DNA of 41,200 bases from an uncultured Bacteroidales bacterium (GTDB lineage: Bacteria; Bacteroidota; Bacteroidia; Bacteroidales; FEN-979): positions 1 to 41,200 of the forward strand of contig CAISJJ010000424.1 of NCBI GenBank assembly GCA_903885595.1, in the 5' to 3' direction. This document shows, piece after piece, positions 2,156-41,199 of this stretch. Position 1 is the stretch's first letter. Each line of letters starts with the position of its first letter. The notes beneath the pieces are model-generated. The model had not been told where the DNA came from. It saw nothing but the letters and a program-made list of their open reading frames with translations, and ran no database searches. Both the position numbers and the translations under genes were made by a program.

Positions 2156-2203
2156 GATGTGAAAATGTGGAGATGTGGAGATGTGAGGATGTGGAGATTT
2201 GGA
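2156..2203. repeat. Phased octamer tandem array (GATGTGGA), six units
   Basis: Six 8-base units lie in exact register: GATGTGAA, AATGTGGA, GATGTGGA, GATGTGAG, GATGTGGA, GATTTGGA. The array starts 23 bases after the stop of the DUF4097-like gene, in the spacer before the GIN-domain gene. It is read directly from the sequence; no function is known. Confidence 0.85.
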
Positions 2204-2227
2204 GCCGGAAGGAATTATTGAAAACTG
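2203..2227. repeat. Dispersed 25-bp motif, copy 1
   Basis: The 25 bases beginning AGCCGGAAGG and ending ATTGAAAACTG match positions 17165-17189 at 23 of 25 positions. Both copies are intergenic and lie before a plus-strand gene. Here the motif directly follows the octamer array. Confidence 0.7.
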
Positions 2228-2239
2228 CAACCTCTAACA

Positions 2240-2307
2240 GTTATAATTTGTGTTTTTGATTTTTGATCTTTGAGTTATAATTTGTGGTTTTGATTTTTGA
2301 ATTTTGC
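2240..2307. repeat. 34-bp direct repeat, two copies, in an AT-rich leader
   Basis: Positions 2240-2273 and 2274-2307 both begin GTTATAATTTGTG and continue with T/G-rich text (TTTTGATTTTTGA). They differ at one of the first 27 positions and diverge only near the end. Further TTTTGAATTTTG variants continue to about 2323. The block fills the spacer before the GIN-domain gene. It also contains many TTTTG/TTG words, so its promoter elements cannot be placed with confidence. Confidence 0.75.
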
Positions 2308-2368
2308 TTTTTGAATTTTGATTGTAACTATATTTTTTTTATTCGTCCAATAACCAAAATTTTAACCT

Positions 2369-3103
2369 ATGAAAACAACAAGATTTTTTTCAGTTTTTAT
2401 GTTTGTGACCCTGTTTATGGGTGTTTCGGGTCTTTTTGCCAGTTGCAGCGTAGTTGGCGGGGCTCATGGAGATGGAAATGTTTTAAAGGAGACCCGCACG
2501 GTTTCCGGATTTGATGCCATTGATGTTTCCGGTGCATTTGATATCATCCTGAAGCAGGGGGAGAAGGAGGAGGTTACAGTGGAAGCTGATGCCAACCTGC
2601 TCCCGGTCATTCGTACCGAGGTTGTTGGCGGAACGCTGAAGATTGACACCCGGAAGCCGGTTCAGCACGTCACAGTGATGCGGGTTTATATAACCGTGAA
2701 GGATCTGAAGGAAATTGATGTGAGTGGTGCAGTTGATATTGAAACCGATGGCCTCATTACGGTTCCCGAACTCAGCATCGATGCATCGGGAGCATCGGAT
2801 TCCAAACTGAATATTGCTGTTCAGAAGTTGACGCTCGATTGCAGCGGCGCCAGCAAGATGAAATTTTCAGGTTCTGCCGTTGATGTGTCTATGGATCTGT
2901 CGGGGGCTTCCGACATTTTTGCCTATGAAATGGCTGCCGAAAACTACGACCTTGGGATCAGTGGTGCCGGCAATGCACAGATAAATGTGTCGAAGAGGAT
3001 TCGCGCCGAGATTTCAGGAGCTGGCAGCGTTAAATACAAGGGATCGCCTGCCGAAGTTGACCAAAGTGTTTCCGGCGCTGGATCGATTAAAAAAGTGCAG
3101 TAA
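2369..3103 (+). CDS. GIN-domain (DUF2807) putative lipoprotein
   Basis: This 244-residue exported protein belongs to the DUF2807 / GIN-domain family of putative auto-transporter-head adhesin-like solenoids. The N-terminus has a hydrophobic signal ending in LFASC (Cys at about 27), a plausible lipobox, so it is probably a lipoprotein. The body carries eight turns with the family's SGA motif: DVSGAFDI, DVSGAVDI, DASGASDS, DCSGASKM, DLSGASDI, GISGAGNA, EISGAGSV, SVSGAGSI, spaced about 15-35 residues apart. It follows the DUF4097-like gene on the same strand after a 236-base repeat-filled spacer, so it may have its own promoter. Family assignment is strong; ligand and role are unknown. Confidence 0.92.
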   Translation: MKTTRFFSVFMFVTLFMGVSGLFASCSVVGGAHGDGNVLKETRTVSGFDAIDVSGAFDIILKQGEKEEVTVEADANLLPVIRTEVVGGTLKIDTRKPVQHVTVMRVYITVKDLKEIDVSGAVDIETDGLITVPELSIDASGASDSKLNIAVQKLTLDCSGASKMKFSGSAVDVSMDLSGASDIFAYEMAAENYDLGISGAGNAQINVSKRIRAEISGAGSVKYKGSPAEVDQSVSGAGSIKKVQ

Positions 3104-3111
3104 AAGAAAAA

Positions 3112-3150
3112 ACCTACCCTGTCAGGGTCCGTGACACTGACAGGGTAGGT
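3112..3150 (-). terminator. 14-bp perfect hairpin, terminator for the minus-strand regulator operon
   Basis: ACCTACCCTGTCAG (3112-3125) pairs perfectly with 3137-3150 across an 11-base loop. It lies between convergent genes. On the minus strand the hairpin is followed by a T-rich run (the complement of AAAAGAAAAA at 3102-3111), as in an intrinsic terminator. On the plus strand no T-run follows. Its inner 31 bases resemble a second palindrome at 8111-8141. Confidence 0.75.
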
Positions 3151-3179
3151 ATGTGAATGCAGGCGAGAAACCGGATTTT

Positions 3180-3476
3180 TTATTTTTTTGGGTGAATATA
3201 GACCTGAATAGAATGAACATAGCTTTCAAACTGCCGGATCCCTTTCGGGGTGATCCGGCAGGTCGTTAAGGGGCGTTTGTTCCGAAAGGATTTTTCAATT
3301 GAAATGTACCCTTCATTGCTGAGTTTCTCAAGCTGAACACTGAGATTTCCTGCAGTGGAACCAGTTTTTTCCTTCAGGAAGGTGAATTCAGCCTCCAGTA
3401 CACTAACCAGTATCGAAACAATAGCAAGTCGCAGTTGCGAATGAAGTATGGGATCAAGTTCGTTATACTGTGCCAT
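3180..3476 (-). CDS. Small winged-helix transcriptional regulator
   Basis: This 98-residue protein is a single winged-helix DNA-binding domain of the MarR-like HTH_34 kind. It opens with LDPILHSQLRLAIVSILVS, continues with the recognition-helix region STAGNLSVQLEKLSNEGYI, then the wing SIEKSFRNKRPLTTCRITPKG. This order is characteristic of short Bacteroidota regulators that act on an adjacent membrane-protein gene. Its ATG lies 14 bases inside the 3' end of the upstream membrane-protein gene, so the two are almost certainly translationally coupled. A perfect 14-bp palindrome before that upstream gene (4103-4116) is a candidate operator. No ligand-binding domain is present. Confidence 0.88.
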   Translation of the reverse strand: MAQYNELDPILHSQLRLAIVSILVSVLEAEFTFLKEKTGSTAGNLSVQLEKLSNEGYISIEKSFRNKRPLTTCRITPKGIRQFESYVHSIQVYIHPKK

Positions 3477-4053
3477 TTTTGAAGCTTAATTTCAAAATGT
3501 AACCCGGAATGATGTATCCGCTTAAAACCGATATCCCCAAAAGAATTAACTGAATGTCGTGTGTTACATAGCAGGCTGCCGCAGCGCATGCCCAGCAAAT
3601 TATACTGCCAATGATCAATGGTATGAAGCGGAATGTCATACCGGAAACAAATAACCCCATGCCATATATGATCATGATTACAGGATACGCGATCTGGCCG
3701 CCAAACCTGCCCCCGACGAATGCTGTAAGGAAAAGCGCGACCAGGACGCTGAACCAGGTATGGCCCAGGAAGGTCTCGAAATAGGTCTTTACTTTTTCTT
3801 TTCGCTTTTGAAAAAGAGAATAAATTAACGCGATTATTCCACCCGTCCCCATTAAAACCGGCCACGGCAGCCAATGGTTTGGAGAATGGGTGATCGTTAA
3901 TAAATAATAGTCCAGCCCGCTGGCAATCAGTACCAGCCAGCCCCAGAGCAAATAATGAAAGCTGTTGTCGCTGACACTGGTTTTGGCCGTAGCAATCATT
4001 TCATTGATGATTTTCAGACTGTCTTGCTCATTTAAATTTTCTTTTGTTTCCAT
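3463..4053 (-). CDS. Polytopic membrane protein coupled to the winged-helix regulator
   Basis: This is a 196-residue protein of unknown function. The first 30 or so residues are polar (KENLNEQDSLKIINEMIATA). About five or six hydrophobic segments follow, for example YLLWGWLVLIASGLDYYLL, VLMGTGGIIALIYSLF, SVLVALFLTAFVG, PVIMIIYGMGLFVSG and LIIGSIICWACAAAACYV. No catalytic or transport motif is visible. The gene overlaps the regulator gene by 14 bases. The pair is likely a small sensing or autoregulated unit, but the signal cannot be read from the sequence. Confidence 0.82.
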   Translation of the reverse strand: METKENLNEQDSLKIINEMIATAKTSVSDNSFHYLLWGWLVLIASGLDYYLLTITHSPNHWLPWPVLMGTGGIIALIYSLFQKRKEKVKTYFETFLGHTWFSVLVALFLTAFVGGRFGGQIAYPVIMIIYGMGLFVSGMTFRFIPLIIGSIICWACAAAACYVTHDIQLILLGISVLSGYIIPGYILKLSFKNGTV

Positions 4054-4102
4054 AATTGATGAGTTATTTTAAATTTGATTTCCAATAAACACTTGAACTA
4101 CT

Positions 4103-4116
4103 ATTGATATATCAAT
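4103..4116. promoter_or_regulatory. Perfect 14-bp palindrome, candidate operator
   Basis: ATTGATATATCAAT is a perfect inverted repeat, centred about 56 bases upstream of the start of the membrane-protein/regulator pair and downstream of the hydrolase stop. Its position and symmetry fit the binding site of a dimeric winged-helix protein, most simply the regulator encoded in the same operon. That link is inference. Confidence 0.45.
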
Positions 4117-4145
4117 CATTACCATCGATTGAACCACATTTTCTG

Positions 4146-5102
4146 TTAATTGTCATCGTTTTTCATCTTGAGTAACTCAATCATTACTATTTCGTTGCTT
4201 TGAGTCATCGCCTCATCAAAAGCCTCGATACTTCCTCCCAAAAAACTGATGTGTTCGATAATACCTTTAAGTATTTCCTTTTTTTCATCCGAAGTTTGGT
4301 AAGGGATTAAAAAAGCATGTCCGGCATTTGGGTAATTAAAACTCAGCAATTGTTCATCATGATTTTTTAACTTGAGCCTCTTTTTTATAGCTTCCGACAT
4401 TAAGTTTGAAGGCCATATCTGGTCTTGATCTCCTGAGAATAGAATAATTCTTGCATTTGAATTTCCAACTGGTATAATAGTCTGTTCATCAACGGGTTTG
4501 TCTAATGCACCCAGGTAAAAGTTTATGATAGGGTAATATCCCTTACTATAGTCGTAATGTACAAAAGGAAGTGGGTTGCCATTTTTAGTCAAACTTGATT
4601 TAATACTGCTGTAGTCTGCTCTGTTTATTCCCTGCCAAACCACGTGACTGGGTGATGCAGCAATCACCAATCGGATTGATTTATTTTCTGATGCAAGCAA
4701 AAGAGCAGGTTCTGTTCCTTTAGAGATACTTATTATGGCTATTTTATCAATCATTACGCCTTTAAATGTTTTTAACGTATCAAGAGCCTGCTGAAAATAC
4801 TCCATGGGGATCTCCTCTAATTGTTTGTTGAGACCCTCGCTGCCAAAGTAGGCTAAGGCCATTACCCCAAAGCCCTTTTTTGTTAATACTTTCGCCCATT
4901 CCCTGGCGTATGTCAGCCCACCTTCAGAGCCACCCAATACCAGTACAACCGGAAATGTCGCCTGATCACCTGGGGCATTCCATTCATAGACAAGCCTTTT
5001 ATATAGGGTGTTTTGTGAAAATGTTTCAAAATGGATGACGGTCAGGAAAATGGTTGCTGCACCCATTAATGCGTAAATCAAAATACTGTTATTCCTTTTC
5101 AT
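4146..5102 (-). CDS. Exported alpha/beta-hydrolase, BAAT/acyl-CoA thioesterase C-terminal type
   Basis: This is a 318-residue serine hydrolase. A hydrophobic N-terminal signal or anchor spans about residues 7-28 (ILIYALMGAATIFLTVI), so it likely acts outside the cytoplasm. The fold markers are VVLVLGGSEGG (oxyanion loop), the nucleophile elbow IISISKGTEPALLLAS, an acid in GDQDQIWPS and a histidine in YPNAGHAFLIPY. The S-x-S-K-G elbow and the following helix resemble the C-terminal domain of bile-acid-CoA:amino acid N-acyltransferase / acyl-CoA thioesterases. The N-terminal Ig-like domain of those enzymes is absent. Its coding sequence is visibly more AT-rich than ligA or its other neighbours, which may indicate acquisition. 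The substrate is unknown; peptidase or dienelactone hydrolase activity is also possible. Confidence 0.85.
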   Translation of the reverse strand: MKRNNSILIYALMGAATIFLTVIHFETFSQNTLYKRLVYEWNAPGDQATFPVVLVLGGSEGGLTYAREWAKVLTKKGFGVMALAYFGSEGLNKQLEEIPMEYFQQALDTLKTFKGVMIDKIAIISISKGTEPALLLASENKSIRLVIAASPSHVVWQGINRADYSSIKSSLTKNGNPLPFVHYDYSKGYYPIINFYLGALDKPVDEQTIIPVGNSNARIILFSGDQDQIWPSNLMSEAIKKRLKLKNHDEQLLSFNYPNAGHAFLIPYQTSDEKKEILKGIIEHISFLGGSIEAFDEAMTQSNEIVMIELLKMKNDDN

Positions 5103-5246
5103 TTGATTCCAATGTTAATGTTGTTACGGATTGGTTGTTTTTCAAATTCAAGATTACACTTTCGATCAGGTAAATTACAAATTAGGCTGTCAGTTTTTTT
5201 CGATTTTTGAGTGTAGTCACAATAGTTGATATTTATAAATAAGTTG

Positions 5247-5278
5247 CAAACATAAATAAGTTTATACCATAAACCAAA
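5247..5278 (-). promoter_or_regulatory. Bacteroidota-type promoter for the hydrolase gene
   Basis: On the minus strand TTTG (5278-5275) is followed after 20 bases by TATGTTTG (5254-5247), matching the -33 TTTG / -7 TAnnTTTG pattern of the Bacteroidota primary sigma factor. The resulting leader would be about 140 bases. The rest of the 215-base gap to ligA is AT-rich with no gene. Confidence 0.5.
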
Positions 5279-5317
5279 TAAAATGCAATAAATATTTTCC
5301 TGATCGGTAACAGGGGA

Positions 5318-8091
<2,774 letters not shown>

Positions 8092-8110
8092 CGGTCAGTC
8101 ATTTTTTACA

Positions 8111-8141
8111 ACCCTGTCAGTGTCCACCACCTTGACAGGGT
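8111..8141. repeat. 31-bp palindromic repeat, copy 2
   Basis: ACCCTGTCA (8111-8119) pairs with TGACAGGGT (8133-8141) across a 13-base loop. It has the same length as 3116-3146 and matches it at 25 of 31 positions, with differences only in the loop. Neither strand shows a T-run after the hairpin, so it looks like a dispersed palindrome rather than a normal terminator. It lies between two same-strand genes (aminotransferase and GT2). Confidence 0.65.
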
Positions 8142-8152
8142 GGTTGGGCGGG

Positions 8153-9271: not shown

Positions 9272-9272
9272 A

Positions 9273-10814: not shown

Positions 10815-10857
10815 CTGCTTTAAATTGTTTAACTGATCATTGTACCTTTAACTATTT

Positions 10858-10979
10858 TGCTACCTCGCTATTTACTCACGATCATTTTTATTTATTTTGG
10901 GTGTTCGTGATTGCTTCGCAATTCGCTACCTCGCAATTTCGCTATTTCGCTACCTCGCAATTTCGCTATTTCGCTACCT
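10858..10979. repeat. Octamer array of the CGCTACCT family, locus 1
   Basis: Two units (GCTACCT, CGCTATTT) lie at 10858-10873. The main phased array runs from 10917 to 10979. From 10924 it reads CGCTACCT, CGCAATTT, CGCTATTT, then the same three again, then CGCTACCT, so a 24-bp higher-order unit is duplicated exactly (10926-10949 and 10950-10973). A decayed unit (CTCTACGT, 10980-10987) contains the TAG stop of the UspA gene. The array fills the spacer between the UspA and GT-C genes. Confidence 0.9.
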
Positions 10980-10981
10980 CT

Positions 10982-11871: not shown

Positions 11872-11945
11872 GATTTACGATTTACGATTTACGATTTACG
11901 ATTTTTTAATATTCGATATTCAATATTAGATATTCGATATTCAAT
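11872..11945. repeat. Heptamer arrays (GATTTAC x4; ATTCGAT-type x5)
   Basis: Four perfect GATTTAC heptamers occupy 11872-11899. After an 11-base link come five phased heptamers at 11911-11945: ATTCGAT, ATTCAAT, ATTAGAT, ATTCGAT, ATTCAAT. The array begins 8 bases upstream of the UspA start codon and so would form its 5' leader. The remaining 41 bases to the HD gene stop are unremarkable. Confidence 0.9.
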
Positions 11946-12574: not shown

Positions 12575-12650
12575 ATCGGGGATGATTTTTTTGTAAAAAT
12601 ATGAAAAAAAGTGAAGCTTGAAATAGAAAAGAAAAAAGTGACCGGTAAAA

Positions 12651-13312: not shown

Positions 13313-13410
13313 ACGAATTACGAATTACGAAGTACGAATATCGAGTGACAAGTGACGAGTGACAAGTGACAAGTGACAAGTGACGAATTACGAGTGACGA
13401 GTGACGAAAT
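13313..13410. repeat. Phased heptamer array, 14 units (ACRAGTG / ACGAATT)
   Basis: Fourteen contiguous 7-base units hold perfect register. Most are ACGAATT, ACAAGTG or ACGAGTG, with ACGAAGT, ACGAATA, TCGAGTG and ACGAAAT as variants. The array lies between rpe and rpoD, starting 8 bases upstream of the rpe ATG. Its units are of the same TGAC/GTCA kind as the array at 36665-36734, in the opposite orientation. Confidence 0.92.
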
Positions 13411-13421: not shown

Positions 13422-13453
13422 AACTTACCAACTTACCAACTTACCAACTTGCC
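13422..13453. repeat. Octamer array AACTTACC x3 plus AACTTGCC
   Basis: Four phased octamers follow the heptamer array after an 11-base link and end 5 bases before the rpoD stop. The units belong to the same TTRCCARC family as the long array at 18180-18331. Two unrelated unit families therefore stand next to each other in one spacer. Confidence 0.88.
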
Positions 13454-13458
13454 AGCTT

Positions 13459-14322: not shown

Positions 14323-14393
14323 GCGAACGCAATTTGTTTTGACCTAAAATATGGGTCGGTTTACGTAAAAATTAGGTTAAGGTTACATTATAA

Positions 14394-17277: not shown

Positions 17278-18120
17278 ATGACAAAAATTAAAGGGGCTAC
17301 TGTTTTAGTTACAGGAGGCGCATCCGGAATTGGACGGCTGATGGGAAGCATGTGCATGACCGATGGGGCAAAACAATTGATATTGTGGGATATAAACAAG
17401 GGAAAGCTGGAAAAAACAACACGTGAATTGCGTGCCATGCATTTCATCGTTCATCCGTTTGAGGTGGACGTTGCAGATTCCTCACAGGTGATTTCGACAG
17501 CAAGGCAAGTAATAACCGAACTGGGCGAGATTGACATACTTATCAACAATGCCGGAATTATTACCGGGAATATGGATTTTAAGGACTTTACGCATGCCGA
17601 TGTAGATAAAACCATGGCTGTTAATTCGAATGCGCTGATGCATGTAACTCTTGAATTTCTTCCTGGTATGGTTAAAAGGGGTTCAGGCCATATCGTCAAT
17701 ATATCTTCGGCTGCAGGCATGCTTTCAAATCCCGGAATGTCAGTGTATTGTGCGAGTAAATGGGCTGTTTCCGGCTGGTCAGAGTCGCTGCGTCTTGAAC
17801 TTGAGCGGGCCCGGAGCGGGGTGCATGTGACAACGGTCAATCCATCTTTTATTGATACCGGCATGTTTTCGGGGGTTAAATCAATTTTCTTATTGCCGCT
17901 GTTGAAACCTGAAGTCCTTGCCGGAAGGGTCGTAAGGGCAATCAAATTAAACAGGTTGTTTGTGAGGGCACCATTTATGGTAAAAATACTGCCCTTTGCA
18001 AAAGGAATTCTCCCGGTCCGGGTCTTTGACATGATCGTTGGCCGATGGCTGGGGGTCTACCAGGCAATGTCGGGGTTTAAGGGACATGGGGGAGAAGCTG
18101 GCAAGCTGGTAAGCTGGTAA
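17278..18120 (+). CDS. Short-chain dehydrogenase/reductase
   Basis: This 280-residue NAD(P)-dependent oxidoreductase belongs to the classical SDR family. It has the nucleotide-binding TGGASGIG at residues 12-19, NNAG at 90-93, the catalytic Ser in NISSAAG (about 143) and Tyr157-x3-Lys161 in VYCASKW. A hydrophobic C-terminal region (LLPLLKPEVLAGRVVRAIKL) suggests membrane association, as in retinol-dehydrogenase-like SDRs. The stop codon lies inside an octamer array, and the last residues (AGKLVSW) are encoded by repeat units. It precedes an aldehyde dehydrogenase on the same strand, so the pair may oxidise an alcohol to an acid, or reduce in the other direction. The substrate is unknown. Confidence 0.92.
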   Translation: MTKIKGATVLVTGGASGIGRLMGSMCMTDGAKQLILWDINKGKLEKTTRELRAMHFIVHPFEVDVADSSQVISTARQVITELGEIDILINNAGIITGNMDFKDFTHADVDKTMAVNSNALMHVTLEFLPGMVKRGSGHIVNISSAAGMLSNPGMSVYCASKWAVSGWSESLRLELERARSGVHVTTVNPSFIDTGMFSGVKSIFLLPLLKPEVLAGRVVRAIKLNRLFVRAPFMVKILPFAKGILPVRVFDMIVGRWLGVYQAMSGFKGHGGEAGKLVSW

Positions 18121-18132
18121 GCTGGCAAGTTG
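18096..18132. repeat. Octamer array, inverted arm (AGCTGGYA), 4.5 units
   Basis: Units AGCTGGCA, AGCTGGTA, AGCTGGTA, AGCTGGCA plus AGTTG lie in register. They are the reverse complement of the array at 18180-18331, separated by a 47-base unique segment. The SDR stop (18118-18120) falls within the third unit. Transcribed RNA could form a long hairpin. Confidence 0.9.
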
Positions 18133-18179
18133 AACTTCCGGGAGTCATTCTCTGTTCTGTTGAATGCTAAGAAAAAACC

Positions 18180-18331
18180 TTACCAGCTTGCCAGCTTACC
18201 AGCTTACCAACTTGCCAACTTACCAGCTTACCAGCTTACCAGCTTACCAGCTTACCAGCTTACCAGCTTACCAACTTGCCAACTTACCAACTTGCCAGCT
18301 TACCAACTTACCAACTTACCACCTTACTAAC
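18180..18331. repeat. Octamer array TTRCCARC, 19 units
   Basis: Nineteen contiguous 8-base units hold exact register up to 9 bases before the ALDH ATG. The first seventeen differ only at position 3 (A/G) and position 7 (A/G): TTACCAGC, TTGCCAGC, TTACCAAC, TTGCCAAC. The last two (TTACCACC, TTACTAAC) are decayed. There are no spacers, so this is not a CRISPR. Confidence 0.95.
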
Positions 18332-18340
18332 TATTCAAAT

Positions 18341-19717
18341 ATGTCAGAACAAGCCAAGTTTTCAGTAGAAAATCAGCGGTTGTTTTTCAAAACAAACAAA
18401 ACCAAGGATATCGGGTTCAGGATATTGCAGCTTAAAACCTTGAAGAAGGCTATATTGGCTTATGAGGACCGGCTGTATGAAGCGCTCTGGAAGGACCTCC
18501 ATAAATCAAAATTTGAAGCCTATGCGACAGAAATAGGCCTGGTACTGGCCGAAATCAGTTTACACATCAGCCATCTCAGGAAATGGGCTAAACCCAGGCG
18601 TGTTTTTACAAACCAGTTGATTCATTTCTGGTCGTCCAGCCGGATTTATAAAGAACCCTATGGCTGTGTTCTGATCATTGCACCCTGGAATTATCCTTTT
18701 CAGATGCTGATTAAACCGCTGGTTGGCGCTATCTCCGCCGGGAACTGCATTACACTGAAGTCGTCAGAATACAGCCCGCATACATCGGACGTAATGGGCT
18801 GCATGATCAGGGAATTTTTCCCTTCAGAATACCTTGCCATATATAGTGGTGGCAGGGAGGCGAATCAGGCCTTGCTATCCCAGACATGGGATTATATTTT
18901 CTTTACCGGAAGTTCGCTGGTCGGTAAGGTTGTTATGGAAGCTGCAGCGAAGAACCTGACTCCGGTCTCACTTGAGCTTGGTGGAAAAAGTCCGTGCATC
19001 GTCGATCATGATGCCAACCTGAAAATAGCAGCCACCCGCATCATATGGGGTAAATTCATCAACGCCGGTCAAACATGTATTGCACCTGATTACCTCTTTG
19101 TGCATCGATCGGTGAAGGATGAATTGCTTATGCTGATGAAACAGAAAATAACCGACTTCTTTGGCCGCGACCCCAAACAAAGTCCCGATTATGTGCGCAT
19201 TGCAACCAAGGCTAAAACCGAACGGCTTGCTGCATTTCTGAAAGGGGCGCATCTGGTTGCCGGTGGTGAGATTGATGTTGAAACACGTTATATTGCGCCA
19301 ACCATTATCGATGCGGTAAAGCAGGATGATCCGATAATGCAGGAAGAGATATTCGGGCCGATATTGCCTGTCATGGAATTTGAAACCCTCGATGAAGTGG
19401 TCGATTATGTGAATGCTCATGCCCGACCACTTGCTTTTTATTACTTTTCCAGGTCAGGAAAAAAACAGTCGGATATCCTTAACAGGACCTCCTCGGGCGG
19501 GGGATGCATCAATGAAGTTGTCATGCACATTGCCAATGACAACCTGCCGTTTGGTGGCGTTGGGAACAGTGGCATCGGACACTATCACGGAAAATTCAGT
19601 TTTGATTTGTTCTCACATCAGCGGTCGATCATGAAAAAGGCAGTTTTTCCTGATATCCCGGTAAGATATGCGCCCTATAAAAACAAACTGACCCTGGTAA
19701 AAATGCTAATCAAATAG
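18341..19717 (+). CDS. Aldehyde dehydrogenase (class 3-like)
   Basis: This is an NAD(P)-dependent aldehyde dehydrogenase, which oxidises aldehydes to acids. The start at ATG 18341 gives 458 residues, as usual for the short class 3 (ALDH3/FALDH-like) enzymes. An in-frame upstream ATG at 18164 would add 59 residues that only translate the octamer array. Motifs are IIAPWNYPFQMLIKPLVGA, FFTGSSLVGKVV, LELGGKSPCIV (general base Glu at about 212), and NAGQTCIAPDYLF with catalytic Cys at about 246. It ends with PFGGVGNSGIGHYHGKFSF. The SDR just upstream likely shares its pathway. Fatty or medium-chain aldehydes are plausible substrates but not shown. Confidence 0.95.
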   Translation: MSEQAKFSVENQRLFFKTNKTKDIGFRILQLKTLKKAILAYEDRLYEALWKDLHKSKFEAYATEIGLVLAEISLHISHLRKWAKPRRVFTNQLIHFWSSSRIYKEPYGCVLIIAPWNYPFQMLIKPLVGAISAGNCITLKSSEYSPHTSDVMGCMIREFFPSEYLAIYSGGREANQALLSQTWDYIFFTGSSLVGKVVMEAAAKNLTPVSLELGGKSPCIVDHDANLKIAATRIIWGKFINAGQTCIAPDYLFVHRSVKDELLMLMKQKITDFFGRDPKQSPDYVRIATKAKTERLAAFLKGAHLVAGGEIDVETRYIAPTIIDAVKQDDPIMQEEIFGPILPVMEFETLDEVVDYVNAHARPLAFYYFSRSGKKQSDILNRTSSGGGCINEVVMHIANDNLPFGGVGNSGIGHYHGKFSFDLFSHQRSIMKKAVFPDIPVRYAPYKNKLTLVKMLIK

Positions 19718-20779: not shown

Positions 20780-20843
20780 CGCAATTTCGCTACCTCGCTA
20801 CCTCGCTACCTCGCTACCTCGCTACCTCGCTATTTCACTACCT
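20780..20843. repeat. Octamer array of the CGCTACCT family, locus 2
   Basis: Eight phased octamers: CGCAATTT, five perfect CGCTACCT (20788-20827), CGCTATTT and CACTACCT. The array fills the space between the ComA-like gene and aroE. The TAG stop of the ComA-like gene (20838-20840) lies in the last unit. The unit set is the same as at 10917-10979 and 41160-41199. Confidence 0.93.
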
Positions 20844-21638
20844 CGGCTGAAACTTACTGAATTCCTCGGGCAAAAAGGAAAAGAAGGTGTCGCCGCGAAG
20901 TCCAAGCCGTAATGTTTCAAGCGAGATTAATTCGGCAGGGGCAATGTTTCCAAGGTTTACATTAGCGCCAAAATTTTTGATAAACCATACCTGTTGCGCT
21001 TTCAACGGGGCTTCCCATAATAGTTTGTCGGATTGCACCTTTGCAAGGATCCTGTTAATAAGCGCCACGTGGGCTTTCCCGGTGGCACGGTAAATGCCTA
21101 CATTCCCGGTTTCACGTGCCTCCCCGATAACTTTGAACGATCCGGCCTGCAATTCCTTTTGCATCATTTCGATCCATCGGCCCGGGGCAATTAAAATTCC
21201 GGATTCTTTTGAACCGACTTCAGAAAGAACAGTATATGTTTTGGATAATTTGTGGATATATTCGCACTTTACATCGTGGTCCATGATCATTGACCCATCG
21301 GAGACCTCAACGGAATCAAGTCCTAACTGATCGATATACCTTAAATAATCATCAAAAATATTACGAATCACAAAGGCTTCGAAGAGTGTTCCCCCAACGT
21401 AAACTTTGATGTTTGCCTGCTGGTATACCTTTACCTTCTCTTTGACCCGGTTTCCGGCGATGGAGGTTCCAAATCCAAGTTTGATAAAATCGGCCAGGTG
21501 ACCCGCTGTTTCCACTAAATCTTCGGCCTCACGCACACTGAGTCCTTTATCCATCACCATGGCGATGCCATTTTGGCGTGGTTTTGTGGTGCGGTCGGGT
21601 AAAAAAGAGAGGTTGTTCGAGATCATAATCCACTGCAT
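20838..21638 (-). CDS. Phosphosulfolactate synthase (ComA-like)
   Basis: This TIM-barrel enzyme belongs to the ComA family, which adds sulfite to phosphoenolpyruvate to form (2R)-phospho-3-sulfolactate, the first step of one coenzyme M route. Typical motifs are GIAMVMDKGLSVREAEDLVE, DFIKLGFGTS, VKVYVGGTLFEAFV-like text (IKVYVGGTLFEAFVIRN), GLDSVEVSDGSM, LSEVGSKE and FKVIGEARETGNVGIYR. I prefer the ATG at 21638 (266 residues) because the longer frame needs a TTG start inside the upstream TPR gene. The comB, comC, comD and comE partners are absent nearby, so the product may feed another sulfonate such as cysteate. That use is inference. Confidence 0.88.
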   Translation of the reverse strand: MQWIMISNNLSFLPDRTTKPRQNGIAMVMDKGLSVREAEDLVETAGHLADFIKLGFGTSIAGNRVKEKVKVYQQANIKVYVGGTLFEAFVIRNIFDDYLRYIDQLGLDSVEVSDGSMIMDHDVKCEYIHKLSKTYTVLSEVGSKESGILIAPGRWIEMMQKELQAGSFKVIGEARETGNVGIYRATGKAHVALINRILAKVQSDKLLWEAPLKAQQVWFIKNFGANVNLGNIAPAELISLETLRLGLRGDTFFSFLPEEFSKFQPR

Positions 21639-32239: not shown

Positions 32240-32262
32240 AGCGCGATATTTTTACAAATGTA

Positions 32263-32811: not shown

Positions 32812-32859
32812 GCTGCATACATCATTTGGTGTGTAAAATTACGTTATTTCCCTCTTATT

Positions 32860-34890: not shown

Positions 34891-36627
34891 TTATTTCAGC
34901 TTCATTGAAGCAATAATGCAGGTTATTTTTTTATCCAGACGTTGTTCTGTTACTTCGAATTCATCCTTACTGCCAAGATGCTCCCTGACCCCGAAGTAAA
35001 ATTTAATTTTCGGTTCCGTGCCTGATGGACGTACGCTGATAATGCTGCCATCCTCAAGAATAAATTGCAGGACATTTGATTTGGGCAGGTCGATGGAGGA
35101 AGTTTTACCGGAGGCAGTCTCTTTTTCCAATCCGAGCAGGTAGTCTTTGATTTTTATTACTTTTGAATCATTGATCGTATCAGGCGGGGTGCGTCTGTAA
35201 TCCACCATCATTTGCTGGATCTCTTCGGCCCCGGTTTTTCCTTTTCTCGTTACTGAGATCAGCGACTCTTTGAAGAATCCATATTTTTGATAGATTTCAA
35301 CAAGAAGATCAAACAAGGATTTGCCCTGGTCGGCCATCCAGGCTGCCGTTTCAGCAATCATGGCACAAGCGCTCACTGCATCTTTGTCACGAACAAAATC
35401 TCCGATCAGGTAGCCATAGCTTTCCTCACCGCCAACGATGAACTTTTTATGACCTTCATTTTGCCGGATGACATCTGCAATGAATTTAAACCCGGTGAGA
35501 CATTCAAAATATTCAATTCCGAAGGAAGATGATATTTCAGAGAGCAATTTGGTTGTTACGATGGTAGACACGATGAATTCATTGCCGGTCAATTTATCCA
35601 GGCCTTTCCACCTGTTCAGGATGTAGTAAAAAAGCAGGGCAGCCGTTTGATTACCGTTGAGCAGGATCATTTCGTTTTTATGATTTCTTACGGCAATGCC
35701 AACCCGGTCGGCATCGGGATCCGTGGCCATCACCAGGTCGGCATGAAGCTCCTCGGCGAGTTTGATGGCCATATCGAGCGCATCATGTTCTTCGGGATTC
35801 GGGGAATGAACGGTAGGGAAGTTACCGTCGGCAACAGCCTGCTCCCTGACCATGTGAATATTTTCGAATCCGTACCTGGAAAGAATTTCGGGCACCAGCT
35901 CCCGCCCGCAGCCATGCAGCGGAGTGTAAACAATCTTCAGGTTTTTTTGCCGCCTGATGCAATCGGGCGACAGTGAAAGCGCCGAGACCAGATCAAGATA
36001 CATCCGGTCAATTTCCGCTCCGATACTGATGATATTTTCGGGCACGGCATTCCACTTTACATCATCGATGGAGGTTATCTTCTGCACCTCTTTAATTACA
36101 TTTTCATCATGGGGCGCGATCATCTGAGCGCCATCGTCCCAGTAGGCTTTATATCCGTTGTATTCCCTCGGGTTGTGTGAAGCAGTGACCATGACGCCGC
36201 TCTGGCATCCCAGGTGCCTGATGGCAAAGGATAATTCTGGAGTAGGGCGAAGATCATCGAACAAAAAGACCTTGAACCCATTGGCTGAAAAAACTTCAGA
36301 AACGACGCGTGCGAAATATTTGCTGTTGTTCCTGCTGTCGTACGACATCGCAATTTTAATGGGATCCAATGCCGGGAACATCATAATCAGGTAATTTGCC
36401 AGTCCCTGGGTTGCCATGCCAACCGTATATTTATTCATGCGGTTAGTACCTACACCCATAACTCCCCGGAGGCCTCCGGTGCCAAATTCAAGATCGCGGT
36501 AAAACGAATCGAATAGTTCCAATGGATTTGTTTCCATCAGTTTCTTTATGGTTATCTTTGTTTCATCGTCAAAACTACCGTCGAGCCAAATCTTTGCCCT
36601 TTCTAAAACTGGTTTTTCTATTTCCAT
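34891..36627 (-). CDS. Phosphoglucomutase/phosphomannomutase
   Basis: This alpha-D-phosphohexomutase converts hexose-6-phosphate and hexose-1-phosphate. It is the longer (about 578-residue) PgcA/ManB-like form. It opens EIEKPVLERAKIWLDG; ATG 36627 is preferred to a TTG at 36651. The active loop is SGVMVTASHNPREYNGYK, the metal loop ATDPDADRVGIAV, the sugar-binding loop VGGEESYGYLIGD, and the phosphate site RPSGTEPKIKFYFGV. Since ugd needs UDP-glucose, which derives from glucose-1-phosphate, it fits as the entry step of the nucleotide-sugar cluster. It lies downstream of the RmlD-like gene and uses the heptamer array as its leader. Confidence 0.92.
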   Translation of the reverse strand: MEIEKPVLERAKIWLDGSFDDETKITIKKLMETNPLELFDSFYRDLEFGTGGLRGVMGVGTNRMNKYTVGMATQGLANYLIMMFPALDPIKIAMSYDSRNNSKYFARVVSEVFSANGFKVFLFDDLRPTPELSFAIRHLGCQSGVMVTASHNPREYNGYKAYWDDGAQMIAPHDENVIKEVQKITSIDDVKWNAVPENIISIGAEIDRMYLDLVSALSLSPDCIRRQKNLKIVYTPLHGCGRELVPEILSRYGFENIHMVREQAVADGNFPTVHSPNPEEHDALDMAIKLAEELHADLVMATDPDADRVGIAVRNHKNEMILLNGNQTAALLFYYILNRWKGLDKLTGNEFIVSTIVTTKLLSEISSSFGIEYFECLTGFKFIADVIRQNEGHKKFIVGGEESYGYLIGDFVRDKDAVSACAMIAETAAWMADQGKSLFDLLVEIYQKYGFFKESLISVTRKGKTGAEEIQQMMVDYRRTPPDTINDSKVIKIKDYLLGLEKETASGKTSSIDLPKSNVLQFILEDGSIISVRPSGTEPKIKFYFGVREHLGSKDEFEVTEQRLDKKITCIIASMKLK

Positions 36628-36664
36628 AATTAATTGATCTGTTTTATTCAAAAATCATATTTAG

Positions 36665-36734
36665 ATTTGTCACTTGTCATTTGTCACTTGTCATTCGTCA
36701 CGCGTCACGCGTCACGCGTCACTCATTATTTGTC
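36665..36734. repeat. Phased heptamer array (ATTTGTC/ACTTGTC/ACGCGTC), ten units
   Basis: Units are ATTTGTC, ACTTGTC, ATTTGTC, ACTTGTC, ATTCGTC, ACGCGTC x3, ACTCATT, ATTTGTC, followed by a decayed ACTTTCC. The stop of the RmlD-like gene (36726-36728) and its last codons lie within it. The TGAC/GTCA content relates it to the array at 13313-13410. Confidence 0.92.
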
Positions 36735-37595
36735 ACTTTCCAACATCCTCGCAATGCACTCCTTCAGACTGTCCCTCCAATACGGTATTTCAAGTTTAAA
36801 CCGTTGTTTGATTTTTGATTTATTGAAAACGCTGTAGAAAGGCCGTACAGCCGGTAACGGATACGCTCTTGTTTCAATCGGGTTAATCTGGCAATCAATG
36901 TTGCAGAATTCAACAATGGCTTTGGCGAAATCGTACCAGCTGGCGACTCCTTCATTGGAGAAATGAAAAATTTCGACACCCTGAACAAATGCTTTATTTT
37001 CAAGTATATCAAGGATGACCCTGGCAAGATCACGGGCATAGGTCGGGGTGCCAACCTGGTCGAAAACAACATTCAGTTGTTCTCGTTCCCTGCCATATTT
37101 CATGATTGTTTTCACAAAGTTATGGCCAAATTCAGAATACAGCCATGAAGTACGGATGATCAATGCTTTATTTGCATATGAACTTACGTGCTGTTCGCCG
37201 GAATGCTTGCTTTTTGCATACATTGAAACCGGGTTGGTGGGATCTTCCTCGATGTAGGGTCTGAAACCCGATCCATCGAAAACATAATCGGTTGAGATAT
37301 GAACAAGCAGCGCATCATGTTTTGCAGCTGCCCTGGCAAGGATTCCAACTGCATTTGAATTAATCAGAAAGGCAATCTTTTCTTCCTGTTCTGCCTTGTC
37401 AACAGCAGTGTATGCGGCGCAGTTGATGATGGCGGCAGGTTTAAATCCGGAAACGATATTATCGACAGCCTCTTCATTGGTGATATCCAGTTCAGCCAGG
37501 TCGGTAAAAAGGAATTCAAATGAGGGATAGGTCGACTGAAGCAACCTGATTTCATTTCCAAGCTGGCCGTTGGAGCCGGTGACTAAAATTTGCAT
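36726..37595 (-). CDS. RmlD-like dTDP-4-dehydrorhamnose reductase family protein
   Basis: This extended-SDR protein is of the RmlD family and reduces 4-keto-6-deoxy nucleotide sugars with NAD(P)H. ATG 37595 gives 289 residues, opening QILVTGSNGQLGNEI. The frame from 37646 adds 17 residues without family match. Motifs: NCAAYTAVDKAEQEE, HISTDYVFDG, catalytic YAKSKHSGE, RTSWLYSEFGHNF, and RPFYSVFNKSKIK near the end. The partner genes rmlA, rmlB and rmlC are not in the window, and it is placed with uxs and ugd, so the substrate may not be dTDP-4-keto-rhamnose. The final codons come from heptamer units. Confidence 0.88.
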   Translation of the reverse strand: MQILVTGSNGQLGNEIRLLQSTYPSFEFLFTDLAELDITNEEAVDNIVSGFKPAAIINCAAYTAVDKAEQEEKIAFLINSNAVGILARAAAKHDALLVHISTDYVFDGSGFRPYIEEDPTNPVSMYAKSKHSGEQHVSSYANKALIIRTSWLYSEFGHNFVKTIMKYGREREQLNVVFDQVGTPTYARDLARVILDILENKAFVQGVEIFHFSNEGVASWYDFAKAIVEFCNIDCQINPIETRAYPLPAVRPFYSVFNKSKIKQRFKLEIPYWRDSLKECIARMLESDK

Positions 37596-37700
37596 TTGCA
37601 GCTCTTTATGTTGTACAATATGTCGGATGGAATGCCATGTTATCATTCTTTGTTTGCCTGAATGTGGTCAGGAGGGAATTGCATGTGGGTGCAAAAGCTA

Positions 37701-38639
37701 TCAGATAACAGACTTGAAATAGTTTATTGTGTTCATCAGGCCTTCTTCAAGCATGATCTTCGGTTCCCACCCCAGCTCCTTCCTGGCAAGTGTAATGTTG
37801 GGCTGACGTTGTGACGGGTCGTCAGACGGGAGTGGCATATAGACGATCTTAGATTTTGTGCCTGTAAGCCGGATCACTTTTTCGGCGAGTTCCAGCATTG
37901 TAAACTCATTCGGATTTCCAATATTAACAGGCCCTGTAAAATCTTCGCGGGAATTCATCAGGCGGATCATTCCCTCAAGCAGGTCGTCAACATAACAGAA
38001 ACTTCTCGATTGGGAACCATCGCCATAAATGGTAATATCTTCGTTCTTCAATGCCTGAACGATAAAATTTGAAACGACACGACCGTCGCTGGGATGCATG
38101 CGGGGCCCATAGGTATTGAAAATCCGCATAATTTTGATGCGGACCTTATTTTGCTGATGATAATTGATAAATAACGTTTCAGCGATCCGCTTTCCTTCAT
38201 CATAGCACGACCTGATTCCGATCGGGTTAACATGGCCCCAGTAGGATTCGACTTGCGGGTGAACCTCCGGATCTCCGTAAACTTCGCTGGTTGATGCCTG
38301 CAGAATGCGCGCTTTTGTACGCTTAGCCAGTCCTAACATATTGATGGCCCCCAATACCGATGTTTTAACTGTTTTGATCGCATTATATTGATAATGAATA
38401 GGGGAGGCAGGGCAAGCCAGGTTGTATATCTGGTCAACTTCGATAAAGAACGGCATGGTCACATCGTGACGGATCAATTCGAAGTAAGGGTTTCCGAGCA
38501 GGTGAACAACATTTTGTTTCTGACCTGTAAAATAATTATCAAGGCAAACTACTTCGTTCCCTTCGTTCAGTAACCGCTCACAAAGATGTGATCCAAGGAA
38601 TCCCGCACCTCCTGTAACTAAAATTTTTTTCCTTATCAT
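37701..38639 (-). CDS. UDP-glucuronate decarboxylase (UDP-xylose synthase)
   Basis: This extended SDR converts UDP-glucuronate to UDP-xylose with internally recycled NAD+. It is 312 residues long. The Rossmann motif is [10 protein letters not shown] (residues 10-19), the catalytic Tyr146-x3-Lys150 is in [13 protein letters not shown], and the UXS-specific text [19 protein letters not shown], with [12 protein letters not shown] and [20 protein letters not shown], separates it from epimerases. It acts on the product of the ugd gene just upstream, giving a two-step route UDP-glucose to UDP-xylose. A hairpin stands between the two genes. Confidence 0.93.
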
Positions 38640-38667
38640 GGTTTTGTGATTTGATGAGCATGATTTA

Positions 38668-38708
38668 AAGGGGGTGTCTCAAATTTCAAAAATCTGAGAC
38701 AGCCTCTT
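38668..38708. terminator. Hairpin between ugd and uxs
   Basis: Left arm AAGGGGGTGTCTCA (38668-38681) and right arm 38695-38708 pair at 12 of 14 positions, plus one G-U pair, over a 13-base AT-rich loop. A modest T-run follows on the minus strand (CCCTTTAAAT). It may reduce read-through from ugd to uxs or be a processing/attenuation hairpin. Confidence 0.6.
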
Positions 38709-38726
38709 CAGTAACAGACAAATATA

Positions 38727-40052
38727 TTAATTAGAAGTATCGACGCCAATGCAATAGTAGGAGAATCCTTTGCGCTTCATCTCAGCAATTTCATATATGT
38801 TTCGTCCATCAAACACAACAGGATCTTTCAGAAGTTTACGGATGATGTTAAAATTCGGGAATTTGAACTCAGGCCATTCGGTGACGAGCATAAGGCAGTC
38901 TGCATCAATAAGGGTGTCGTACTGATCGGGGGCATAATAAATTGTATTGCCAAGAATACGCTCAGCTTCATGCATAGCAACCGGATCATAGGCTTTCACT
39001 TTAACGCCGGCCTCCAGCAGTCTTTTGATGATGACCAGTGAAGGAGCTTCCCGCATGTCATCAGTCTGGGGTTTGAACGATAATCCCCAGATTGCAACAG
39101 TTTTCCCTTCCAGCTTTCCATCGTAATGTTTCATCATCTTATTGAACAGAACGGATTTCTGATCATCGTTAACCGCTTCAACCGCTTTTAAAACACGGAG
39201 GCTGTAATTGTAATCATCGGCGGTATGAATCAGCGCCTTTACATCTTTCGGGAAACATGATCCCCCGTAACCTACTCCCGGATATATGAATTTATTGCCA
39301 ATTCTGGTATCAGAACCGATCCCTTTTCGTACCATGTTGATATCAGCGCCAACAATTTCGCAGAGATTAGCCACATCGTTCATGAAGCTGATCTTTGTGG
39401 CTAGCATGGAATTGGCGGCATATTTCGTCATTTCTGCCGAAGTAATATCCATGAAGATCACCGGGTGACCATTCAGGGTAAAGGGTTTGTACAGCGCTTT
39501 CATCAGTTCTTCGGCCCGGGGCGAATTGCATCCGACAACGATCCGGTCAGGCTTGAGGAAGTCATCAATGGCCGCCCCCTCTTTTAAAAATTCGGGGTTT
39601 GACGCAACATCGAATTCGATACTGACGCCCCGCTTATCTAATTCTTCCTGCACGGCATTGCGAACCTTTGAGGCGGTACCCACCGGAACAGTACTTTTAG
39701 TTACGATCAGCAGGTAATCTTTCATGTGCCTGCCACAATCGCGTGCCACGCTGATTACATACTGGAGGTCGGCGCTTCCGTCTTCATCAGGTGGCGTGCC
39801 GACAGCACTGAAAATTACTTCACAATTCTCGAGCGCTTCGGCGATGTTGGTAGTGAATTGAAGACGGTCTTTTTTCATATTCCGGTGAACCATCTCTTCC
39901 AGTCCTGGTTCATAAATCGGAATAATGCCGTTCTTTAAGTTTTCAATTTTTTTCTGGTCAATGTCAACACAGGTGACTTCGATCCCTACTTCAGCGAAAC
40001 AAGTGCCGGTAACTAACCCGACGTACCCGGATCCTACAATTGCGACTTTCAT
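38727..40052 (-). CDS. UDP-glucose 6-dehydrogenase
   Basis: This enzyme oxidises UDP-glucose to UDP-glucuronate with 2 NAD+. At 441 residues it is full length. The N-terminal NAD domain has [19 protein letters not shown]. The central domain includes [20 protein letters not shown] and [19 protein letters not shown]. The catalytic Cys266 is in [16 protein letters not shown]. The UDP-binding C-terminal domain has [20 protein letters not shown]. It supplies the uxs enzyme. It carries its own likely promoter upstream, so it heads the ugd-uxs-rmlD-pgm series. Confidence 0.96.
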
Positions 40053-40083
40053 GTTGTGGAAGTTTTGGTTATAATATTTTTAA

Positions 40084-40091
40084 CAAATATA
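40084..40091 (-). promoter_or_regulatory. -7 element (TATATTTG) before ugd
   Basis: TATATTTG on the minus strand lies about 32 bases before the ugd ATG, with a TTG 23 bases further upstream. The remaining 226-base gap is AT-rich and holds no supported gene. Confidence 0.45.
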
Positions 40092-40278
40092 AATATAAAT
40101 TGTTCCGTTTATTTCAATATTTCTCTTTACAACCTCAATAAACCTAACAATAAGGTTGAAAAATATAACACGTTGTATTGCCCGTATCAAATTTCCCGGT
40201 TGTTATTGGTTGCCGAAGTTAATCTTTTCTTCAATTCAGTGAATGAATCCTCAAAAAAAAACACGAATCGTAAATGTG

Positions 40279-41082
40279 TCAGATATTAAGCCTGGTTTGA
40301 ATTACCTGGATGTCCTGCTGTAACTTTTTCACTGTTTCCACAAGGTGATAGTTTTCCGTAGTAGTATTCTCCGGAATTTTTGGACTTATATAGTGAACAA
40401 ACTGCCATATTTCCCTGATATCCATGGTGTTGATTTCGTATGGGGGATAAAGCGGGTTCAGCGAATGCAATACCAGTTTTCCCTCGGTTTTGATCCGGTT
40501 TTCGAGAACCTTAAAAACAATACCTTCGTCCATGGTAAGAACAATATAGGCATCCTTGTCGCGTATCGTTGTCCAGTCCTGGATGAATACCCCGGTAACC
40601 CATGCCCCGGGCGGAATCGGAAGCATCGAATCGCCATTGATCTGAAACGTCCTGTATTTTTTTTGACGTGAAAGAAAGGGCAACCGGAATGTGGGTAAAA
40701 TGCTGATATATTCAGGGTCGGCAAAACCACTGGTATATCCTGCTTTCGCTTTTTCGGAAACGAGTTCTATGTTGTCTTCGTTATCTGCATTGACAGTGGT
40801 GGCCAGCACCCTGAGATTACTGCCCTTCAGAAACACATCGAAACCCCGTTCTATCTGCCGCAACTGGCTCTCAGAGAGCTTTGCCAGATCAACCTTTATC
40901 AGGGTATCGATGGCAATGTTGAAGTAATTGGAAAATTGGATGAGCGCCTCCAACCCGGGATGAGCTACATTGTTTTCATACCCGCTCAGGGTCGACCGTT
41001 TCATATTGATGGCGACTGCCACATCGTCCTGCGTACGCCCCCGGCGCCTCCGCATGAATTTTATATTGCTGCTGAAAAACAT
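40279..41082 (-). CDS. XRE-family repressor with S24 self-cleaving domain
   Basis: This is a 267-residue DNA-binding regulator. The N-terminal XRE helix-turn-helix (IKFMRRRRGRTQDDVAVAIN, then MKRSTLSGYENNVAHPG) covers about residues 7-60. The C-terminal domain is a LexA/CI-like S24 peptidase: cleavage site Ala114-Gly115 in KAKAGYTSGF, nucleophile Ser152 in INGDSMLPIPPG, and Lys191 in GIVFKVLENR. A short helical tail (LVETVKKLQQDIQVIQTRL) ends the protein, perhaps for oligomerisation. RecA-promoted self-cleavage is possible but not proven by motifs. It lies upstream of ugd on the same strand and could regulate the sugar cluster. Confidence 0.92.
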   Translation of the reverse strand: MFFSSNIKFMRRRRGRTQDDVAVAINMKRSTLSGYENNVAHPGLEALIQFSNYFNIAIDTLIKVDLAKLSESQLRQIERGFDVFLKGSNLRVLATTVNADNEDNIELVSEKAKAGYTSGFADPEYISILPTFRLPFLSRQKKYRTFQINGDSMLPIPPGAWVTGVFIQDWTTIRDKDAYIVLTMDEGIVFKVLENRIKTEGKLVLHSLNPLYPPYEINTMDIREIWQFVHYISPKIPENTTTENYHLVETVKKLQQDIQVIQTRLNI

Positions 41083-41102
41083 GGTAAAAAGTTTTGGTGT
41101 TG

Positions 41103-41127
41103 CAAATATAGTGATTATATTGTAATC
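41103..41127 (-). promoter_or_regulatory. Promoter -7 element and inverted repeat before the S24 repressor
   Basis: TATATTTG (41110-41103, minus strand) matches the local -7 consensus 21 bases before the ATG. Just upstream GATTA-TATTG-TAATC (41113-41127) forms an inverted repeat between -7 and -33. A repressor bound there would block polymerase, so autoregulation is a natural hypothesis. Confidence 0.45.
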
Positions 41128-41159
41128 GGAAAAATGATTAGAAATATGGCAAAAAAAAT

Positions 41160-41199
41160 AGCGAGGTAGCGAGGTAGCGAGGTAGCGAAATAGCGAAAT
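41160..41199. repeat. Octamer array of the CGCTACCT family, locus 3 (reverse orientation)
   Basis: Five phased units AGCGAGGT x3 then AGCGAAAT x2 run into the right edge of the window. They are reverse complements of CGCTACCT and CGCTATTT, the same two variants as at 10917-10979 and 20780-20843. The array is upstream of the S24 repressor; its full length and the next gene lie outside the window. Confidence 0.9.

Follow-up and report, generated by a model that had tools for sequence, protein, structure and literature searches.

The STRR repeats of filamentous cyanobacteria are dispersed heptamer arrays belonging to a few families, and the REP/REPIN elements with their RAYT transposases are intergenic, dispersed and arranged in converging pairs. 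Here we describe tandem arrays with units of 7 or 8 bases in the intergenic spacers of an uncultured Bacteroidales bacterium (FEN-979; assembly GCA_903885595.1, a draft of 6.02 Mb in 547 contigs), starting from its contig CAISJJ010000424.1 (C424), which was analysed over its entire 41200 bp and is called the window below. An initial annotation of the window had likened these arrays to the cyanobacterial heptamer repeats and this likeness holds; one STRR unit, TTGGTCA, equals one of the families found here. STRR repeats belong to another phylum, however, and the present arrays include octamers.

Repeats of the heptamer TAACTGA have been described in Beggiatoaceae, Cyanobacteria and five Bacteroidetes (MacGregor, 2015; PMC4679880). 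That study reports intergenic heptamer sets in Bacteroidetes that are mixed with other heptamers and inside which contigs terminate, and indels between two Cyanothece strains that are mostly in 7-nt steps. These repeats resemble our arrays in that tandem intergenic heptamers occupy many loci, mix their units and are absent from the corresponding spacer in close relatives, but the study follows one unit, whereas the present arrays comprise many families, an octamer class and genome-specific spellings (dialects). The GGGAATC heptamers of Xanthomonas and GGGGAYT heptamers of Nostoc are G-rich and form quadruplexes (Rehm et al., 2015; PMC4692102). In Xanthomonas the repeats are intergenic like ours, lie nearer the 5′ neighbouring open reading frame, occupy fewer divergent gaps than controls and include 70 and 75 cases of two close convergent sites. 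Most units found here, in contrast, have no G-triplet: the commonest (AAATCGT, TGACRAR, GGTAGCGA and GGTAAGCT) lack GGG and hence the four or more G-tracts of at least three that a G-quadruplex needs, and by inspection GGG occurs in a few rare units. Among long simple sequence repeats with units of 5–11 nt, heptamers are the commonest in most genomes, and slippage and a 7-nt polymerase contact were proposed (Mrazek et al., 2007, cited in PMC4679880 and PMC4692102). Octamers are here about half as common as heptamers, and the citing passages mention neither dialects nor polarity. These arrays are also unmentioned in the parts of PMC12699852 that deal with short tandem repeat density. To call the arrays a distinct system, as the initial annotation did, was therefore too strong, since mixed intergenic heptamer sets in Bacteroidetes (PMC4679880) and convergent heptamer pairs in Xanthomonas (PMC4692102) were already described. 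Heptamer arrays are known; the octamer class, the genome dialects, the turnover of units at orthologous spacers and an outward polarity look new, and a search of titles and abstracts, mostly outside the subscription literature, returned none describing genome dialects or a general edge polarity.

We read the arrays, with a probability of about 0.5, as dispersed intergenic repeats that advance in steps of 7 or 8, belong with the long simple sequence repeats and STRR repeats, and would be expanded by slippage, copied between loci and tolerated where they are harmless. Arrays were detected with Tandem Repeats Finder in the window and with a detector of our own, at strict and looser settings, in a pooled set of 1.95 Mb from 20 genomes (16 of the same genus and 4 from other genera of the family); first- and second-order Markov shuffles served as controls. 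Genes were called with a simple caller of our own, and spacers of at least 25 bp were counted by orientation. Eighteen congeners are labelled G001–G018; the PNPase of G008 is 98% identical to that of the genome under study (the own genome). The own-genome share of the pooled set (814 kb) includes stretches chosen for array matches, while 19 own-genome contigs reading mostly N and a short locus of G014 outside the pooled set (L119) were left out before counting.

The arrays are real. At the looser setting the 20 genomes contained 104 period-7 and 55 period-8 arrays, with another 22 and 9 at periods 14 and 16; every other period had at most 12 arrays and periods 5, 10, 13, 17 and 19 only 0–2 each, which bears out the two unit lengths proposed initially. 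Shuffled sequence of either order contained no period-7 or -8 array according to our detector, and second-order shuffles at the looser setting gave two arrays in all, with periods 28 and 30. Like long simple sequence repeats and STRR repeats, the arrays are head-to-tail copies of a unit of 5–11 nt far beyond chance and are dispersed and intergenic: out of 196 arrays, 147 lie in spacers and 25 within called genes, and 24 lack a called gene on both sides. Own-genome contigs not picked for arrays, window excluded, held 16 strict period-7/8 arrays in 333 kb, which extrapolates to about 290 for the genome; G011 has 22 arrays of period 7, 8, 14 or 16 in 100 kb (looser setting). Arrays are widespread in Bacteroidota but several times thinner at 80 other Bacteroidota loci (1.37 Mb), which yielded 14 period-7 and 4 period-8 arrays at the looser setting, against 54 and 32 in the 814 kb of the own genome with its chosen stretches. 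Array-free spacers have a weak and uneven cryptic 7/8 periodicity, which several genomes do not show at all; in the own genome lags 7 and 8 have z values of 4.9 and 2.4, but lags 3 and 6 reach 6.3 and 4.8.

An assembly artefact, which the initial annotation had named as a possible refutation, is highly unlikely. The window and a few other contigs do terminate in arrays, but periods, families and polarity recur in separately assembled genomes, and contig ends do not pile up at arrays with any strong excess: among contigs not picked for arrays, 2/55 ends had an array in the last 120 bp, compared with 1.3% of 3000 internal draws.

A TKAC core is present in 36% of 42 unique heptamers (13% in letter shuffles) and a GGYRA core in 44% of 27 octamers (11% in letter shuffles); both motifs were picked after viewing the units, and a shared core is only a lead. 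In a distant relative, the Prevotellaceae metagenome-assembled genome (MAG) Hs463_bin52, five arrays with periods 7, 8, 14 or 16 lie within 1 kb (L062, 1686–2624), and 7- and 8-base forms of similar TTTGTTGA / TCTTTGT units are adjacent. TATTGCC-type heptamers occur at several loci, including L230 8946–8996 and L145 7325–7362 (G011), and form another family.

The first line of evidence for our reading is that genomes differ in how they spell the same family. It had been noted from the window that a few unit families recur at distant loci in both orientations, and this holds. Matches to three tandem copies of a unit were counted. TGACRAR had 187 matches in the own genome and a maximum of 397 in G014, with matches in 13/46 genomes; as a control, the reversed pattern had 0 in the own genome and up to 10 in others. 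The spelling TGACAAG had 42 matches in the own genome, 52 in G018, 20 in G003 and none in G004 or G008, while TGACGAA had 1, 5, 1, 37 and 30 in these genomes, respectively. Both spellings occur in G014 (TGACGAA 26, TGACAAG 44) and G013 (19 and 6). Between the own genome and G008 the TGACAAG:TGACGAA ratio of 42:1 versus 0:30 gives a Fisher p of about 1e-19, for matches that are not independent, and the split spans 16 and 19 distinct loci. GRTAGYGA was matched 203 times in the own genome, 76 in G011, 26 in G003 and 24 in G025, but not in G008, G012, G013 or G018, and is present in 12/46 genomes. CTTACCAG had 24 matches in the own genome and AAATCGT 53; AAATCGT had any match in 10/247 genomes sampled from the phylum, own included. 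Independent slippage should not pick one spelling per genome, so dialects are not explained by local slippage alone, and judging from these spellings sequence appears to pass between unlinked arrays.

The second line of evidence comes from orthologous spacers in the syntenic region around pnp. With the own genome included, arrays occupy the rpoD-rpe spacer in 9/20 species and two other spacers in 7/17 and 3/11; median lengths without and with an array are 46 and 78, 25 and 44, and 47 and 90 bp for these three spacers. The S15-pnp, pnp-rpoD and rpe-HD spacers hold arrays in 0/19, 0/20 and 0/20 species, and the latter two are visibly conserved in sequence where printed. The units at rpoD-rpe differ between species: the own genome has GGTAAGTT, TGACRAR and AATTCGT types, G011 has GGTAGCGA and AAATCGT, and G022, from another genus of the family, has GGTGAAAT and AAATCGT. 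Array units thus turn over at orthologous spacers while the neighbouring three spacers stay empty. In G008 the rpoD stop and the rpe start are just 2 bp apart. In that genome a long heptamer array (L242, 16026–16180) shifts from an AATGACC to a TATTGCC-type unit along its length and is possibly a record of unit turnover.

The empty spacers have features of their own. By eye, the pnp-rpoD spacer (14323–14393) measures 70–78 nt including the stop and start codons in 18/20 relatives printed; it is strongly conserved (TGTAACCT...ACGTAAACCGACC) and may serve the sigma factor gene as promoter or leader. In the rpe-HD spacer (12575–12650) a TATTTTTACAAAAAA-like core is retained in most relatives printed; it resembles the consensus of a Bacteroidota promoter.

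The third line of evidence is polarity. Each of the families GGTAGCGA, GGTAAGCT, GGTGAAAT, TGACRAR, GATTTAC, AATTACG, AATKACC and rarer ones was written in one direction. Out of 151 motif clusters, 89 lay close enough to one gene edge for assignment (35 lay in no spacer of at least 40 bp and 27 were too central). The 3′ edges had 53 outward and 7 inward arrays and the 5′ edges 26 and 3, so that 79/89 were outward overall. A direction set by transcription would reverse at 5′ edges; polarity is therefore set by the edges of the gap and not by transcription, and in this genus most arrays of a given family read outward, whichever kind of gene edge they adjoin. Each family's direction was chosen on the data on which it was tested, which counts against this reading; a within-family majority test that allows for this, omitting two single-array families that are both inward, gave an agreement of 79/87 against a mean of 55.0 for coin flips, unmatched in 20000 draws. 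Further points against it are that family F7 has 1 outward and 2 inward arrays at 5′ edges and that 15 pairs of different-family neighbours within 250 bp point the same way (9 converge and 1 diverges). Of the 89 arrays at edges, 51 come from the own genome, and a site shared by orthology was counted once for each species. Same-family neighbours on opposite strands within 400 bp converge 11:0, and three more point in the same direction. Within spacers, inverted pairs are enriched (9/35 versus 6.2% of 1500 control pairs) and direct pairs are not (1/35 versus 6.5%), and the loops between the arms are unrelated save for arrays inside them.

Arrays of named families near a visible gene edge of the window conform, by inspection, to the outward rule. 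The window contains the following arrays:

2147–2204, strand unassigned: octamer array of the AGATGTGG type, about 13 bp past a stop codon

2253–2323, strand unassigned: degenerate heptamer array of the TTTTTGA type, 70% matches, also called at 2288–2320

10915–10980, minus strand: octamer array of the GGTAGCGA family with AATAGCGA and AATTGCGA units interspersed, immediately following the Usp stop codon

11872–11904, plus strand: heptamer array of the GATTTAC/AAATCGT family, which also occurs in this spacer in several congeners

11909–11942, minus strand: heptamer array of a GAATATC-like family, from Tandem Repeats Finder

13313–13339, plus strand: heptamer array of the AATTACG family, adjoining the likely rpe start

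13342–13407, plus strand: heptamer array of the TGACRAR family

13422–13458, minus strand: octamer array of the GGTAAGTT family, adjoining the stop of the sigma-70 gene

18095–18129, plus strand: left arm, octamer array of the GGTAAGCT family; the terminal part of the SDR gene (reading frame end at 18120) overlaps it

18179–18327, minus strand: right arm, inverted octamer array of the GGTAAGCT family, 18.6 copies, ending 13 bp short of position 18341, where the aldehyde dehydrogenase likely starts

20787–20845, minus strand: octamer array of the GGTAGCGA family, whose edge includes the stop codon (20838) of the ComA-like gene

36665–36738, minus strand: heptamer array of the GTGACAA/GTGACGC family, beginning about 3 bp past a stop codon

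41156–41200, plus strand: octamer array of the TAGCGAGG family at the contig end

Tandem Repeats Finder returned a period of 7 or 8, or a multiple (14, 16 or 24), wherever the initial annotation had placed an array. The description of the arrays as uninterrupted and in exact register went too far, as matches at these places range over 76–100% with many unit variants. The supposed single array at 18096–18331 is in fact two inverted arrays 49 bp apart (18095–18129 and 18179–18327), and that at 11872–11945 is two different heptamer arrays; the weak period-7 array at 2253–2323 had been missed. The array at 41156–41200 runs to the end of the 41200-base contig and has only its left flank visible. 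Two peptides had been named as encoded by such repeats: DLRFTIYDLRF is encoded at 11872–11904, but only QLTNLPAYQL (18280–18309) and not the full YQLTNLPAYQL occurs in the window. The genes around the arrays are mainly ordinary Bacteroidota genes according to a Pfam search of 30 window proteins, which identified PNPase, S15, an RpoD-type sigma factor, RecA, DNA ligase, RmlD and a type IX secretion domain protein. Among named relatives of the PNPase, the best are Bacteroidetes and Bacteroidales MAGs with at most 73% identity. The longest open frame of the aldehyde dehydrogenase runs upstream through the octamer array (18164–18340), but its Pfam match begins at residue 65 and the start is therefore more likely at 18341. 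Annotators should be cautious here, since an array overruns a gene end (18095–18120) and another lengthens an open frame (18164–18340).

All seven array-bearing window spacers with both flanks visible lie between co-directional genes, as first reported (7/21 co-directional, 0/4 divergent and 0/2 convergent spacers), but this carries little weight because the window has so few other gaps. Over the 20 genomes arrays occupy 90/700 co-directional, 15/106 convergent and 13/195 divergent spacers, the divergent ones being the longest, and a restriction to co-directional gaps therefore fails by the refutation test that had been proposed with it. With the window and the chosen stretches left out, 64/599, 12/87 and 11/160 remain, so the divergent shortage is modest. 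Filling of spacers from stop to start, also suggested at first, is partial: co-directional spacers hold 113 arrays, of which 50 have their beginning no more than 8 bp from the stop and 20 have their end no more than 8 bp from the start.

It had also been suggested that transcribed arrays act as mRNA spacers, RNA-binding sites or expression tuners, and this is unsupported. The window pair at 18095–18129/18179–18327 folds into a long stem (−86.4 kcal/mol, z −6.0). As a class, however, array spacers are not more structured than spacers without arrays, for which a sample of 200 was folded: median z is −0.11 (n = 78) versus −0.22 (n = 129) in co-directional, −1.81 (n = 11) versus −1.25 (n = 25) in convergent and −0.27 (n = 9) versus 0.04 (n = 46) in divergent spacers. 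A hairpin is thus no general function, as just a subset folds strongly, and the gap of 2 bp between rpoD and rpe in G008 also speaks against such roles.

Under slippage and copying, slipped-strand replication would grow and shrink arrays in unit steps, and new arrays, together with the spelling common to a genome, would arise by copying of an array at another locus, for which the dialects seem to call. For example, a DNA 3′ end that is broken or has stalled within a spacer could prime on another array through template switching or ectopic gene conversion. Such ends extended from both sides of a gap would leave converging arms, and outward polarity may be the expected trace of 3′-end extension into the gap. 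Selection would mainly remove arrays that hit promoters, leaders or reading frames, and arrays would therefore survive beside stop codons and in operon spacers. Some converging pairs would fold into long hairpins, which may incidentally affect transcripts. Several points weigh against this account. Slippage and copying are inferred from comparison between species, in which no transfer from a donor to a recipient locus was traced; the outward rule could also result from selection acting at either kind of gene edge; slippage leaves the choice of 7 and 8 unexplained; and the shortage in divergent gaps weakens without the window and the chosen stretches. Published counts fit unevenly. The Flexibacter TAACTGA sets, 12/14 forward before starts and one past a stop in reverse (PMC4679880), fit the outward rule in our reading, but in a Microcystis sample eight sets are reverse and six forward to a start, and eight sets between two stops share one chromosomal orientation (PMC4679880). 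Xanthomonas repeats are about equally frequent on the coding and the other strand, and Nostoc repeats are rarely paired (PMC4692102).

Instead of being tolerated, the arrays could be selected post-transcriptional or transcriptional elements, such as sites bound by a protein of the S1, Csp or Csr type, hairpins with a stabilising or terminating effect, or stop cassettes, as a unit step of 7 or 8 places one stop codon in all three frames. The enriched inverted pairs, the strong fold of the window pair and the reuse of the same spacers across species fit this, and in octamers within 8 bp past the upstream stop the sense strand is richer in stop codons in 20/24 arrays. The corresponding count for heptamers is just 12/26, and the 113 co-directional arrays taken together lean mildly to the sense strand (53 richer in sense, 36 in antisense, 24 ties). 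Convergent spacers also speak in favour: out of 19 cases, the strand that leads away from the nearest stop has more stop codons in 11 and fewer in 3. Families without stops on the outward strand (E7, E7b, T7, I7 and S7) still show the same polarity (22 outward, 2 inward), which rejects multi-frame stop cassettes as a general rule. Given also the ordinary structure of array spacers and the array-free state of the same sites in relatives, selected function is on the unlikely side. An idea based on Rho and YC spacing was weak. Purely local slippage with purifying selection, in which each spacer supplies a chance seed, often the stop codon, is rather unlikely as well. In its favour, GGTAGCGA arrays abut TAG stops in 7/13 cases versus 261/1557 genes (p 0.003), although TGACRAR arrays at TGA stops (5/9, p 0.15) fall short of significance, and some array-free congeners (G002 and G007) hold a single CGTAAAT copy in the HD-Usp spacer. 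Period 7 is also commonest in the 80 other Bacteroidota loci. Against it stand the dialects over unlinked loci, the octamer CTTACCAG, frequent in the own genome and found in just 3/120 searched genomes, own included, and the orientation rule, which holds also at 5′ edges although these offer no stop codon as a seed.

Outward writing onto DNA 3′ ends in spacers by a templated process, be it akin to telomere healing or a form of repair synthesis biased towards one strand of existing arrays, seems quite doubtful, and we lowered its small odds slightly because the published Microcystis and Xanthomonas strand counts fit only in part. If true, it would give one rule for edge polarity, converging pairs and differing families at the edges of one gap, and also for the dialects and unit turnover in the genus and perhaps the convergent Xanthomonas pairs. 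Its stricter form, a dedicated writer that adds repeats outward as in telomere healing, with a lineage-specific template as the source of the dialect, is very unlikely. The identical outward direction at both kinds of gene edge, the 11:0 and 9:1 convergence of opposite-strand neighbours, the unrelated loops and the lineage-specific spelling favour a writer. Yet no candidate writer or template was identified, one genome holds several families, and the 15 further different-family neighbours point the same way. Reverse transcriptase (PF00078) was matched in 16/19 genus genomes, but not in G010, G013 or the array-rich G011. Least probable of these is a mobile palindromic module of the REP/REPIN or miniature inverted-repeat transposable element (MITE) kind with single arrays as remnants, despite the converging pairs and the dispersal. 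Y1 transposase (PF01797), the RAYT type, was matched in 14/19 genus genomes, own included, but not in G005, G010, G015 or the array-bearing G008 and G011. No conserved palindrome of 20–40 nt was found, since the arms are tandem arrays and the loops unrelated; and neighbouring arrays can be of different families. Conserved ends and a target-site duplication would mark a MITE; by eye, the filled and empty orthologues of three spacers shared no common boundary. With both missing from the array-rich G011, neither enzyme seems to be a required partner, within the completeness of drafts of 95–98% (G008 98%, G011 95%), at which a missing match is not proof of absence.

Scattered observations of heptamer arrays exist from several phyla, with no consensus on their origin. 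The dialects imply that the sequence of an array is not made solely at its own locus, and the polarity implies that in this genus it is the gap edges, not transcription, that give an array its direction. This raises a testable question, namely which bacterial process writes or copies short repeats between unlinked spacers.

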